A stretch of 64,000 nucleotides of DNA from Croceivirga sp. GTDB lineage: Bacteria > Bacteroidota > Bacteroidia > Flavobacteriales > Flavobacteriaceae. Positions 14,520-18,521 of the stretch are shown here, in pieces. A program made the translations under genes and the position numbers. Every line of letters starts with the position of its first letter. The first letter of the stretch is position 1. Under the pieces are notes generated by a model. The model was not told where the DNA came from. It searched no databases and was given only the letters and a program-made list of their open reading frames with translations. The stretch is taken from positions 31,096-95,095 of the forward strand of contig JANQQQ010000028.1 of the NCBI GenBank assembly GCA_028284935.1, read 5' to 3'.

Positions 14520-14605
14520 TTTGGCCTTTTCTTAAAAATAGAACATTTACAATGCTCATTTTTGAAATGAATTGTTAAAACTCAAGAAATCAAAAGGATA
14601 AAAAC

Positions 14606-14613
14606 TAACTTTG
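14606..14613 (+). promoter_or_regulatory. Bacteroidota -7 box directly before the HYC_CC_PP gene
   Basis: TAACTTTG (TAnnTTTG) ends only 4 nt before the GTG start codon at 14618. Transcription would begin at or within a few bases of the start codon, which suggests a leaderless or nearly leaderless mRNA. Confidence 0.5.
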
Positions 14614-14617
14614 CCTT

Positions 14618-15028
14618 GTGAAGGAAAAATTGTTGCGGTTACTTTCTCCCCCCCTTGCGGCGCTGTTGGTGCTTTCTACGATTTCATGGTCGGTAGAGAA
14701 GCATCTATGTATGGGTCGTGTCATGGACATTGCTTTCTTTCACCAGACCGATGGCTGTGGTATGGAAGAGGCTATGGTATTAATGGGAAAAACCGCATCC
14801 GATATGGGTTGCTGCGGTAATGAATCCTTTACCTTGGAAGGCCAAGATGACCTACAGCAGTCTTGGGAGGAACTTGACGTGGATGCCCAACAGTTTTTGG
14901 TTGCTTTCGCATATTCGTTTCTGGAAATACTGTCCCAATCCATGGGAGAGGATGTTCCCAAAACCATTTATCCACCCCCTTTATTGGTGCAGGATTTGAA
15001 TATTTTGCACGACGTCTTTTTGATTTGA
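14618..15028 (+). CDS. HYC_CC_PP family protein, probable metal-related envelope protein
   Basis: A 136-residue protein with an N-terminal signal/anchor (LLRLLSPPLAALLVLSTISW). It is followed by the family landmarks: His-x-Cys (EKHLCMG), a Cys pair (MGCCGNE) and a proline pair near the C-terminus (YPPPLL). The family name comes from these motifs; its biochemical role is not established. The Cys/His pattern and its place before a TonB receptor and two heavy-metal-associated proteins suggest metal binding or metal-linked redox work in the envelope. The start is GTG; the signal sequence requires this or a very close start. Confidence 0.78.
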   Translation: MKEKLLRLLSPPLAALLVLSTISWSVEKHLCMGRVMDIAFFHQTDGCGMEEAMVLMGKTASDMGCCGNESFTLEGQDDLQQSWEELDVDAQQFLVAFAYSFLEILSQSMGEDVPKTIYPPPLLVQDLNILHDVFLI

Positions 15029-15092
15029 TTTGTTCCTGAACGGGCATGTATTTGCCGTTGAATAAGGAGTCAAATATCAAATCTACAATGCA

Positions 15093-17336
15093 ATGAAATC
15101 ATATGTTTATTTAGGAACCCTTCTGATTGGGAGTATCCTATCGACCGCTGCCCAAGAAAAAGTAGAGGGTATGGTCATGGAAGCCAATAATGAAGGAAAG
15201 CATATCGGCCTACCGGGTGCCAATGTATATTGGTTGAATTCGCCTGTAGGCACAATTACAAATAGCGATGGCCTATTTTCCATACCGTACAGCAAAGCCT
15301 ACAACAAGCTTATTATCAGTTATGTTGGTTTTGAAACGGATACGTTAACCATCAATGAACCCAGGACGGTGCACCACTGGCTAAAATCTTCCAATCAATT
15401 GGATGAGGTTACTGTTGAACAAGAACGGGAGGCACTTCAAAAGACCTATTTTTCAGCCCAAAATGTGGTGACTGTCAACAGTGCCGAATTATTGAAGGCA
15501 GCTTGCTGCAACCTTTCCGAAAGTTTTGAGACCAATCCAGCCATTGATGTAAATTTCAATAATGCTTTGAATGGGACGAAACAGATTCAAATGTTAGGGT
15601 TAACGAGCCCCTATTTATTGATTACCGAAGAGAACATTCCCATGGTGCGTGGCGCATCACAAACCTATGGATTGACCTTTACCCCAGGGACTTGGGTAGA
15701 AAGCATTCAAATTACCAAAGGCGCTGGTAGTGTGGTCAACGGTTTTGAAAGTATTTCAGGGCAGATCAATACCGAATTGGCAAAACCTCTGACGGATATC
15801 CCACTTTTTGTGAACGGCTACGCCAACTTAAATGGAAGGTTGGAATTGAATACCCACTTGAATTATAAGTTATCGGAAAAACTGAGCACAGGACTGTATT
15901 TACACGCTAATGAACGTCCGTTTGAGGTGGATAACAACGAGGATGGGTTTTTGGACATTCCTTTGGCCAGTCAAATCAATGTTTTGAACCGGTGGCAATA
16001 TCAAAACCCGGAAAAAGGATGGGTAAGTTTTTTCAACCTAAGATTTTTGAATGATGAAAAACAAGTAGGGCAGACCGATTTTAATCCTGATATGGATAGG
16101 TTCACGGCCAATGCCTGGGGCGGCGAAATCGACACCAAGCGTTTTGATACTTCCTTAAAATTGGGTTATGTCTTTCCAGAATTACCCTTTCAGAGCTTTG
16201 GTTTTCAGGCGGCCTATAGCAACCACCAACAGGAGTCCTACTACGGATTCAACGTTTATGATATTGACCATGAGAGTATCTACTCCAACCTTATTTTCAA
16301 CTCTATTATTGGTAGTACAATGCATAAGTTTAAAGCGGGATTGACCTTTGCATATGATAATTATGTAGAGTTGGTAAATAACATCAATTTTGAGCGTTCG
16401 GATAATTCTGCGGGAGCTTTCTTTGAATACAGCTACGATAACTTGGAAAAGGTGAGTCTTACCGCCGGACTTCGATTTGACACCCATAACCGCTTGGGGA
16501 ATTTTTTCACTCCTAGGTTTCATATTCGATACACGCCATGGGAGCGGGGGAGTTTGCGGGGCTCTTTTGGAATTGGGCGTAGAGCGGCGAATATTTTTGC
16601 CGAGAACCAACAATTGTTTGGTTCATCAAGGGCTATCCAACTTTTAGGCAATGATGGGCCGGTTTATGGTTTTGAACCGGAAAAGGCCACTAATTTTGGG
16701 TTAAGTTTTATCCAAGGCTTCAATTTGTTTGAACGTCAGGGAAATGTCTCCATCGATTTTTATCGAACTGATTTTGAAAATCAGGTCGTTGTGGATTGGG
16801 AAAACCCTAGGGAAATCACGTTTACCAATCTGGATGGGGAAAGTTATGCCAACAGCCTGCAAATTGAGCTGAATCATGAGCTATTGCCGAATCTTGATTT
16901 GCGAGCGGCTTATAAATTTTACGACGTAAAGACCCAATATCAAACAGGATTGCTTCAACGACCTTTGGTGGCTCAAAATCGATTTTTTGCCAATTTGGGC
17001 TATGAAACCGAATTAAAGCAGAACGGAAGTCAATGGCGTTTTGACTATACCTTGCACACTATTGGGGAACAACGTTTGCCTAGCACTGACGCTAATCCCC
17101 TTCCACTCCAATTGAGTGATTTTGTGGATGGCTATAGTTTGATGAATGCCCAGATTACCAAGGTGTTTTCAAAAAAATTTGAGGTGTATCTGGGCGGTGA
17201 AAACCTAACCGGTGTAACGCAACCCAACCCTGTTTTGGGAGCAATGGACCCCTTTGGTGCAAATTTTGATACTACTATTGTATATGCCCCTATTTTGGGT
17301 AGAATGGTATACGCAGGATTTCGATTTAAATCTTAA
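15093..17336 (+). CDS. TonB-dependent outer-membrane receptor, probably metal or metallophore related
   Basis: A 747-residue receptor with signal peptide, an N-terminal carboxypeptidase-regulatory-like domain (GLPGANVYW, IPYSKAYNKLIISYVGF), a plug domain near residues 120-230 and a beta barrel to the C-terminus. The last residues, VYAGFRFKS, end in the usual aromatic-rich strand. The plug carries an unusual Cys pair (KAACCNLSESFE), seen in receptors linked to heavy-metal-associated proteins. It lies 64 bp after the HYC_CC_PP gene and 28 bp before the secreted HMA gene, so the four genes are probably one operon. The substrate is not known; copper or another soft metal is an inference from context. 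Confidence 0.88.
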   Translation: MKSYVYLGTLLIGSILSTAAQEKVEGMVMEANNEGKHIGLPGANVYWLNSPVGTITNSDGLFSIPYSKAYNKLIISYVGFETDTLTINEPRTVHHWLKSSNQLDEVTVEQEREALQKTYFSAQNVVTVNSAELLKAACCNLSESFETNPAIDVNFNNALNGTKQIQMLGLTSPYLLITEENIPMVRGASQTYGLTFTPGTWVESIQITKGAGSVVNGFESISGQINTELAKPLTDIPLFVNGYANLNGRLELNTHLNYKLSEKLSTGLYLHANERPFEVDNNEDGFLDIPLASQINVLNRWQYQNPEKGWVSFFNLRFLNDEKQVGQTDFNPDMDRFTANAWGGEIDTKRFDTSLKLGYVFPELPFQSFGFQAAYSNHQQESYYGFNVYDIDHESIYSNLIFNSIIGSTMHKFKAGLTFAYDNYVELVNNINFERSDNSAGAFFEYSYDNLEKVSLTAGLRFDTHNRLGNFFTPRFHIRYTPWERGSLRGSFGIGRRAANIFAENQQLFGSSRAIQLLGNDGPVYGFEPEKATNFGLSFIQGFNLFERQGNVSIDFYRTDFENQVVVDWENPREITFTNLDGESYANSLQIELNHELLPNLDLRAAYKFYDVKTQYQTGLLQRPLVAQNRFFANLGYETELKQNGSQWRFDYTLHTIGEQRLPSTDANPLPLQLSDFVDGYSLMNAQITKVFSKKFEVYLGGENLTGVTQPNPVLGAMDPFGANFDTTIVYAPILGRMVYAGFRFKS

Positions 17337-17364
17337 ATTAATAACATAATAAAAAAATAGAATA

Positions 17365-17724
17365 ATGAAAACTTTTGCAGCTACTGGTCTTTTTCTAATA
17401 ATGAGTGTCTTGTCCTTTTCACAAGACAAGAACAAGAAAATGAATTTCGAGGTCGATGGGGTGTGTGAAATGTGCAAAATGCGAATTGAAAAAGCGGCAC
17501 TGGGGGTTCCTGGGGTAAAATTTGCCTCATGGGATATCCCAACCCATCAACTATCACTAGTTGTTGACGAACGAAAGACCAACTCCATGGAAATTAAAAC
17601 GGCCTTAGTGGCTGCGGGACATGATACTAAAGAGCTCAAAGCAACACAGGAGGCTTATGATAACATACATCCTTGTTGTAAGTATCGGGAGGATGATACG
17701 GACCACAGTGAAAAGCACCATTGA
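17365..17724 (+). CDS. Secreted heavy-metal-associated (HMA) domain protein
   Basis: A 119-residue protein with a signal peptide (TFAATGLFLIMSVLSFSQ) and one HMA ferredoxin-like domain. The domain has a CxxC metal site in GVCEMCKMRIEKA rather than the common MTCxxC. The C-terminal tail adds HPCCKY and a His-rich end (HSEKHH), which gives several extra soft-metal ligands. Probably a periplasmic metal chaperone that takes metal from, or gives it to, the adjacent receptor and membrane protein. It overlaps the next gene by one base (TGATG). Confidence 0.85.
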   Translation: MKTFAATGLFLIMSVLSFSQDKNKKMNFEVDGVCEMCKMRIEKAALGVPGVKFASWDIPTHQLSLVVDERKTNSMEIKTALVAAGHDTKELKATQEAYDNIHPCCKYREDDTDHSEKHH

Positions 17725-18431
17725 TGAAGCAAACGTATGCCATTTCTGGAATGACCTGCGGAGGTTGTGTTGCTTCGGTTACTGAGAAACTTTCAAAAGT
17801 AAGTGGGGTTGAACGAGTAGAAGTTAATCTAGAAAGAGGAGAGGCCGAGGTTGATATGCAAAACCAAGTCTCACTTTCAAATTTAAAAGCGGCTCTTCCT
17901 GAAAAATACACTATCCGGTTGCAAGAGGAGTATAGTGCTTCCTTGGATATTGCCAATGCGAAAACCAAATTACAGCAACTTCAACCCTTGTTCTTGATTT
18001 TTGCCTATTTGTTTGGTGCGGCCTTTCTTTTAAATTATCAGCACTGGAATACCCAAGAAGCCATGCTTGATTTTATGGGGCTGTTCTATATTGTGTTCAG
18101 TTTCTTTAAGTTCTTGGATCTAAAAGGTTTTCCAGAAAGTTTTGGAATGTATGACCCTTTGGCCAAGGCCGTTCCGGCCTATGCCCGGATATACCCTTTT
18201 CTTGAACTCGCTCTCGGCCTGCTGTTTTTAATGCGATTTCAGGTGCAAACGGCACTTATTGTAACTGTAATCATATTGGGCATTACCACGGTAGGAGTGA
18301 CCAAAACACTGTTGGATAAAAAGTCTATCCGTTGCGCTTGTCTGGGAACAGCTTTAAAACTGCCCATGACCGAGGCCACGTTTATTGAGAACACCATAAT
18401 GCTTGTTATGGCAGGAATCATGCTTGTGTAG
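17724..18431 (+). CDS. HMA domain fused to a MauE/DoxX-like membrane protein
   Basis: A 235-residue protein. Residues 1-70 form a classical HMA domain with GMTCGGC. After a short linker come four to five membrane segments resembling MauE-type redox-associated membrane proteins, including FFKFLDLKGFPESF and YPFLELALGLLFLM. A CAC motif sits before the last segment. MauE/DoxX relatives assist thiol or redox chemistry in the membrane, so the fusion suggests a metal-linked thiol redox step. The track ORF includes an upstream TTG; the ATG at 17724 overlaps the previous stop and is preferred. Last gene before a strong bidirectional terminator. Confidence 0.82.
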   Translation: MKQTYAISGMTCGGCVASVTEKLSKVSGVERVEVNLERGEAEVDMQNQVSLSNLKAALPEKYTIRLQEEYSASLDIANAKTKLQQLQPLFLIFAYLFGAAFLLNYQHWNTQEAMLDFMGLFYIVFSFFKFLDLKGFPESFGMYDPLAKAVPAYARIYPFLELALGLLFLMRFQVQTALIVTVIILGITTVGVTKTLLDKKSIRCACLGTALKLPMTEATFIENTIMLVMAGIMLV

Positions 18432-18440
18432 GGATAAATA

Positions 18441-18467
18441 AAAACGCCCTGAACCTCAGGGCGTTTT
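18441..18467. terminator. Bidirectional terminator between the metal module and groEL
   Basis: A perfect 12-bp stem AAAACGCCCTGA / TCAGGGCGTTTT with a 3-nt loop has A and T runs on both sides, so it can end transcription from both convergent genes. Confidence 0.93.
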
Positions 18468-18521
18468 TGTTAAAATATATTTCCGCAAACAAGTTCAGTT
18501 TATGCCTGTCCGCGCTGCGGA

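Follow-up and report, generated by a model that had tools for sequence, protein, structure and literature searches.

A putative copper-handling envelope operon of Croceivirga, probably controlled by its own first gene

The 64,000-nucleotide stretch of DNA from the marine flavobacterium Croceivirga sp. analyzed here (assembly GCA_028284935.1, contig JANQQQ010000028.1, positions 31,096 to 95,095; hereafter the window) carries four adjacent genes, encoding a HYC_CC_PP protein (HYC), a TonB-dependent receptor, a secreted HMA protein and an HMA-MauE membrane protein, which lie on the same strand as one unit running from a GTG start codon at 14618 to position 18431. We suggest, with a probability of roughly two in three, that this is an envelope copper-handling operon controlled by its own first gene: judged by analogy with characterized systems, HYC is probably a copper-responsive leader protein that acts on the genes behind it. 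An earlier sequence-only reading had described the four genes as a soft-metal envelope module with conserved cysteines. Profile matches bear out its gene positions, plus-strand orientation and family assignments, and the module does recur in relatives, but not as a four-gene unit, since HMA-MauE is optional. Its statement that no known regulator is included is probably wrong, HYC being built like a copper-responsive leader protein.

Two leaders of this kind have been described. CruR and CutF are both small, exported and encoded upstream of copper genes, and copper on the nascent chain changes ribosome behavior at a C-terminal proline motif and thereby the expression of the next gene, with opposite signs in the two cases (PMC9426467, PMC9973294). 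The metal motif of CutF lies 45 residues from its C-terminal proline motif, a distance that by its authors' account puts it inside the SecY vestibule, and the next start is hidden in a stem-loop (PMC9973294). HYC has the same outline: an exported first gene product, a same-strand gene behind it, copper-type neighbors, a set Cys-to-PP spacing and a structured junction.

HYC_CC_PP, its junction and its promoter

The window HYC matches profile NF047658 well above the curated cut-off (E 9e-25; 87.6 against 28 bits) and carries a signal peptide. Across 67 homologues C31, C47, C65, C66 and P121 are invariant and H29 and P120 nearly so. The distances towards the C-terminus are restrained: CC and PP are separated by 53-54 residues in 68 of 73 proteins, exactly 15 residues run from PP to the end in 67 of 73 (the second proline being residue 16 from the end), and the CC-PP distance has a standard deviation (SD) of 1.0, against 2.6 for the HxC-CC distance, which ranges from 30 to 42. 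Phylum-wide, the CC-PP distance stays within 50-57 residues. An AlphaFold2 model of HYC has no compact fold (predicted local distance difference test, pLDDT, 70; predicted template-modeling score, pTM, 0.31), and a fold search with it returned no match. The literature searched did not name HYC_CC_PP (NF047658). A published survey reports many CutF-like proteins in Bacteroidota, with OEP, RND and TonB genes among their neighbors, and its filter was a PP within the last 15 residues (PMC9973294). With their 15-residue tail, the window HYC and 67 of 73 homologues just miss this filter, and the subtype may have been filtered out; the Flavobacterium-type HYC has a tail of 12 after PP, which puts its PP within the last 15 residues.

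The RNA directly behind HYC is predicted to be structured. In the window, the 5' arm of a stem (15022-15037) begins with the final Ile codon and the stop codon of HYC and pairs with 15065-15083, 9 nt short of the receptor ATG; taken alone this stem is only moderately significant (z -2.32, with 6 of 200 shuffles equally stable). Over 76 loci the HYC junction folds with a median z of -2.8 and 91% of values below -1, compared with a median of -0.65 and 39% for the other intergenic junctions of the same loci (n=231) and a z of -0.25 for receptor coding sequence. As junction arms drift in register, MAFFT pair counting was replaced by an arm-swap permutation, in which the arms at HYC junctions pair at -9.7 kcal/mol with their own partners and at -7.5 kcal/mol when swapped, a difference of 8.5 SD (1.9 SD at control junctions). 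A separate set of 19 RND junctions, drawn from many families and the more independent of the two, gave a median z of -3.7 and an arm-swap difference of 7.4 SD. The stop-to-start stem is found at 61 of 67 HYC junctions and 138 of 315 controls (p 2e-13). It occurs whether the next gene encodes a receptor, HMA-MauE or an RND protein, and its sequence varies between loci; by these comparisons the stem is a covarying one. A search for known RNA families at the junction gave no credible match. A further 9-pair hairpin with a T-rich end (14987-15010) lies within HYC itself, a short way past its PP codons near the 3' end, and could be an attenuator or chance.

Upstream of HYC, the sequence TAnnTTTG, which we take to be the Bacteroidota -7 box consensus, occurs within 120 nt of 66 of 75 HYC genes, usually 4-8 nt ahead of the start codon; the background is 8.5% per 132 nt. 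With a -7 box abutting the start codon, HYC probably has its own promoter and an mRNA that is leaderless or nearly so. A sigma-70 promoter scan and a generic terminator scan stayed at chance level. A GTTAA element stands mostly 42-43 nt before the -7 box (37 of 62 aligned loci; background 3-4%) and may be an activator site; the window copy, at 14574-14578, is 32 nt before the box. At loci L036, L049 and many of L132-L179, HYC is preceded by a pair of genes for proteins of ~180 and ~142 aa, read as exosortase-like, and keeps its own promoter behind them, and L048 has two divergent HYC genes, one of them at the head of an RND operon.

These features can be assembled into a working scheme. HYC would be translated and exported, and Cu(I) would bind the His/Cys motif of the nascent chain, ~53 residues from the peptidyl-transferase center and near the SecY exit. 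With metal bound, ribosomes would pause differently at PP and in the tail. A ribosome halted at PP would be ~48 nt short of the stop and would leave the stem closed, and one at the stop codon would open it and allow the next gene to be translated. HYC might instead be a stable periplasmic copper binder, CusF- or chaperone-like, with no role as a cis leader, and the operon an ordinary one for copper uptake or resistance; the near-invariance of its metal ligands and its export signal suit such a protein, as does a place beside RND and receptor genes. We consider this unlikely, because HYC gave neither a compact model nor a fold match, its tail is conserved and its PP-to-stop distance near-fixed, the structure directly behind it is much weaker at other junctions, and the promoter abuts its start codon; moreover, other small Cys-rich exported open reading frames (ORFs) precede the receptor where HYC is unrecognized.

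The receptor, its HMA partner and the inner-membrane protein

Searches of 297 Bacteroidota genomes with all four proteins detected HYC in 92 (~31%), the receptor in 98 at E 1e-70 and 77 at E < 1e-120, the secreted HMA protein in 102 and HMA-MauE in 18. HYC lies within 3 kb of 44 of the 77 stricter receptors on the same strand, an HMA domain adjoins or is fused to 55 of them, and HYC and receptor co-occur by genome with an odds ratio of 11 (p 5e-17). In 80 named loci, nearly all from Flavobacteriaceae, the order HYC-receptor-HMA recurs at one genomic position, in many cases next to groEL-groES. In all 75 of the 75 loci compared, the gene behind HYC is on the same strand; it encodes the receptor, HMA-MauE or a CopA-like ATPase and, elsewhere, an RND protein. 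HYC stands directly ahead of RND genes in 19 of 42 loci, and the one RND protein tested belongs to the CusA/CzcA family. Sequence comparison shows a conserved core of HYC, receptor and HMA across Bacteroidota, in which gene order is mostly kept. The sequence-only reading had made its proposal depend on co-occurrence and on conserved cysteines, and both hold for this recurrent core, the Cys motifs being essentially invariant in relatives of all three proteins.

The fourth gene behaves differently. HMA-MauE adjoins the receptor in only 3 of the 18 survey genomes that have it and stands behind the HMA gene, or between HYC and receptor, in 30 of the 80 named loci; relatives put a CopA-like ATPase or a CusB-like adaptor in its place, and a four-gene operon as a conserved unit was rejected. 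The CopA-subfamily P-type ATPase (TIGR01511, 577-587 bits; cut-off 397) precedes the receptor instead of HMA-MauE in 7 of 80 loci, never together with it. At L115 a CusB-like adaptor with a heavy-metal-binding domain (HMBD) and DUF3347 lies ahead of the receptor, and PepSY_TM genes are present at L108 and L112. The absence of a P-type ATPase and of a separate regulator that had been pointed out holds for the operon described here, but both are found in the operons of relatives. Of eight receptor loci inspected that have no recognized neighbor, most have a small Cys-rich exported ORF directly upstream, and some of these ORFs are weak HYC matches.

The receptor consists of CarbopepD_reg_2, Plug (PF07715) and TonB barrel (PF00593) domains. 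Its A137-C138-C139 is invariant in 11 aligned receptors with overall identities to the window protein down to 37%, and the CC pair presumably lies on a plug helix that faces the periplasm, as in the general layout of TonB receptors. In nine survey genomes an HMA domain occurs once or twice in the receptor reading frame, ahead of the plug; the five fusions inspected have two HMA domains (L185, L186) or one (L187, L188, L189) and carry a His-rich linker ahead of the plug. Such fusions place the HMA domain on the periplasmic side, physically tied to the receptor. The separate HMA protein of the window matches PF00403, with CxxC, HPCC and a His-rich end. In its relatives C34, C37, C104, C105 and G85-H86-D87 are invariant, so that of the HPCC and His tail singled out earlier the CC stands, while the H, the P and the tail vary. 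HMA domains of the locus are most similar to CopZ/MerP.

HMA-MauE, whose HMA half is likewise nearest MerP/CopZ, most likely starts at the ATG at 17724, which overlaps the HMA stop codon (TGATG). It has no signal peptide and about five transmembrane helices (structure model pLDDT 83), from which its HMA domain and CxC are predicted to face the cytosol. Both HMA cysteines and both CACLG cysteines are invariant in its relatives. MauE is described as redox-associated, and HMA-MauE could be a thiol-redox protein, a DsbB- or DoxX-like donor that keeps the periplasmic HMA and plug cysteines reduced; the CxC, present in all 18 HMA-less MauE proteins compared, agrees with such a role. We regard this as improbable, since HMA-MauE has M118, M142, M215 and M226 whereas these 18 proteins lack all four, which fits a Cu(I) path, and a CopA-like ATPase takes the place of HMA-MauE in relatives. 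The thiol-redox relay offered by the sequence-only reading lacks specific support: the CxC is a general MauE feature, and the added methionines would suit Cu(I) binding better.

The coordinates are collected in Table 1. Beyond the 3' end of the operon lies groEL, convergent to it, and the hairpin in the gap between them is read, from its sequence, as a bidirectional terminator, though it is absent from the output of the terminator scan. Other genes were seen at related loci. Behind the HMA gene of L112 and L134 (and, by gene size, of L113, L115 and L131) lie genes for a ~322-aa protein beginning TCCSGGVPLSNN and for a DUF3179 lipoprotein-like protein. AraC-type regulators with an N-terminal MVCDRC are encoded near HYC at L053:4491-5078 and L046:10549-11148.

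Table 1. Features of the operon and its flanks, in window coordinates
Feature	Position	Strand	Remarks
-7 promoter box, Bacteroidota type, TAACTTTG	14606..14613	+	ends 4 nt before HYC start codon
HYC_CC_PP gene, GTG start, 136 aa	14618..15028	+	NF047658 match; invariant residues; spacing constancy
HYC_CC_PP H29-x-C31	14702-14710		motif site
HYC_CC_PP C47	14756-14758		motif site
HYC_CC_PP C65-C66	14810-14815		motif site
HYC_CC_PP P120-P121	14975-14980	+	followed by 15-residue tail
RNA stem-loop, HYC/receptor junction	15022..15083	+	folding; kept across loci
TonB-dependent receptor, 747 aa, plug motif KAACCNLSESFET	15093..17336	+	Pfam domains
Receptor plug C138-C139	15504-15509	+	ACC invariant in aligned receptors
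Secreted HMA protein, 119 aa	17365..17724	+	PF00403
Secreted HMA C34-x-x-C37	17464-17475		
Secreted HMA G85-H86-D87			
Secreted HMA C104-C105	17674-17679		
HMA-MauE membrane protein, 235 aa	17724..18431	+	PF00403 + PF07291; N-terminal GMTCxxC
HMA-MauE C204-A-C206-LG	18333-18347		
HMA-MauE Met pairs M114/M118, M226/M229			
Hairpin with flanking A and T runs, operon/convergent groEL gap	18440..18468	.	read from sequence; putative bidirectional terminator

Copper and the direction of its transport

We infer that the metal is copper because of the company these genes keep: a CopA-like ATPase, a CusA/CzcA-type RND protein, a CusB-like adaptor, PepSY_TM and HMA domains of CopZ/MerP type with GMTCxxC. 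In the scheme proposed here the receptor would take copper, as such or chelated, through the outer membrane, the secreted HMA protein would exchange it on the periplasmic side of the plug, the presumed site of the CC pair, and HMA-MauE (CopA in relatives) would provide the link to the inner membrane and cytosol through its GMTCxxC, CxC and Met pairs. Another soft metal, mercury or silver, appears very improbable. The HMA domains resemble MerP almost as closely as they do CopZ, the arrangement of HMA and HMA-MauE resembles MerP-MerT, and MerTP is an existing HMA-membrane fusion; yet no MerT match reached the cut-off, the genes recur in ordinary marine flavobacteria beside CopA-like ATPases, and no mer gene was identified among the neighbors examined.

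A TonB receptor would by default be read as serving uptake. Efflux pumps and receptors are preceded by one and the same kind of leader and stem, which suggests the same regulatory sign for both, that is, a copper-induced receptor operon. The operon could accordingly serve detoxification and not acquisition, being induced by copper like Cus and CopA, with a receptor that imports something needed under stress or helps to discharge copper. Cus-like RND operons are headed by the same HYC leader and junction stem, and CopA-like ATPase and CusB-like adaptor genes are co-directional with the receptor in relatives; we treat detoxification as a genuine possibility, though not as the expected outcome, for the characterized copper TonB transporters OprC and CrtA are importers, copper represses CrtA via CruR (PMC12914433, PMC9426467), and CutF and CruR show that related leaders can act with opposite signs. 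A bolder combination, in which leaderless copper leaders with a stem act throughout Bacteroidota with one sign on efflux and receptor operons, and the receptor, equipped with the CC of its plug and an HMA either docked on it or fused to it, works under copper excess, possibly in TonB-driven copper exit or exchange, is a long shot.

Several points weigh against a copper-handling operon controlled by HYC. DUF2946 (PF11162) was absent among the Pfam families matched by 67 HYC members at E <= 1, and without detected homology of this kind the likeness of HYC to CruR and CutF is one of design and not of proven descent; the published leaders have CXXC or CxxxC, 45 residues from the proline motif, where HYC has HxC and CC at 53-54. 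PP is missing from the HYC proteins of L047, L048, L051, L065, L162 and L165. The fixed spacing could stem from a folded domain, poor as the model is, and the stem might do no more than couple translation of the two genes, with no part for copper; in addition, the loci are related and the permutation tests ignore phylogeny. MerP-like HMA domains also bind Hg, so that the assignment of copper rests mainly on the neighbors. One type of leader heading both efflux and receptor operons is a poor fit to a purely uptake role. Finally, no expression, metal-binding or translation data were found for any member, and the literature searched yielded no usable copper transcriptome of Bacteroidota that carry these genes.

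Comparison with known systems

The CruR-BfrG/CrtA-PepSY_TM system of Bordetella pertussis (PMC9426467, PMC12914433) likewise begins with a small exported Cys/PP leader ORF placed before a TonB-dependent transporter; the spacing from Cys motif to PP is near-fixed in HYC as in CruR, and PepSY_TM occurs near some HYC relatives. The details differ. CruR has a CXXC and an RAPP with 45 residues between them, the latter 3 residues before the end, together with DUF2946 and Rho termination, whereas HYC has HxC/CC, a longer spacing, a 15-residue tail and a stop-to-start stem; CrtA is without conserved Cys, whereas the receptor here has the plug CC and an HMA partner. With CutF-CutO of Rhodobacter capsulatus the shared traits are an exported copper-sensing leader, a C-terminal proline motif and a stem-loop that shields the next start, and the available part of the CutF survey mentions neither a HYC family nor an HMA partner, a leaderless promoter or a stem in Bacteroidota (PMC9973294).

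OprC of Pseudomonas (PMC8610252) offers TonB-type copper import through the outer membrane, the adjacent plug CC being a feature of the receptor described here. The OprC model was not among the NCBIfam or PDB matches of this receptor (TIGR01778 is not one of its 12 NCBIfam matches at E <= 0.1). In MerTP and MerP-MerT, as here, an HMA domain is joined to a small multi-helix membrane protein, which in our case is MauE with CxC and Met pairs; the MerTP model was not reached (36.6 bits against 180, over the HMA part only), nor was there a MerT match at the cut-off. Membership of OprC, CrtA or MerT is rejected or unsupported by family matches. The Cus RND and CopA efflux loci of Bacteroidota share the HYC leader, and in relatives CopA- or CusB-like parts accompany the receptor, whereas the window locus has neither a Cus RND nor a CopA pump.

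Set against these systems, the kind of leader is already known. As far as our tools show, several points are new: the HYC family is here assigned to it, a predicted promoter abuts the HYC start codon, the stem between stop and start covaries, HMA domains are fused to receptors, and a CopA-like ATPase can replace HMA-MauE. If HYC is such a leader, NF047658, so far named after its motifs, becomes a testable regulator of copper efflux and receptor operons, and a copper TonB-receptor family is nominated for Bacteroidota that has a dedicated, sometimes fused, HMA partner, together with a membrane partner for which a CopA-like ATPase can be exchanged.

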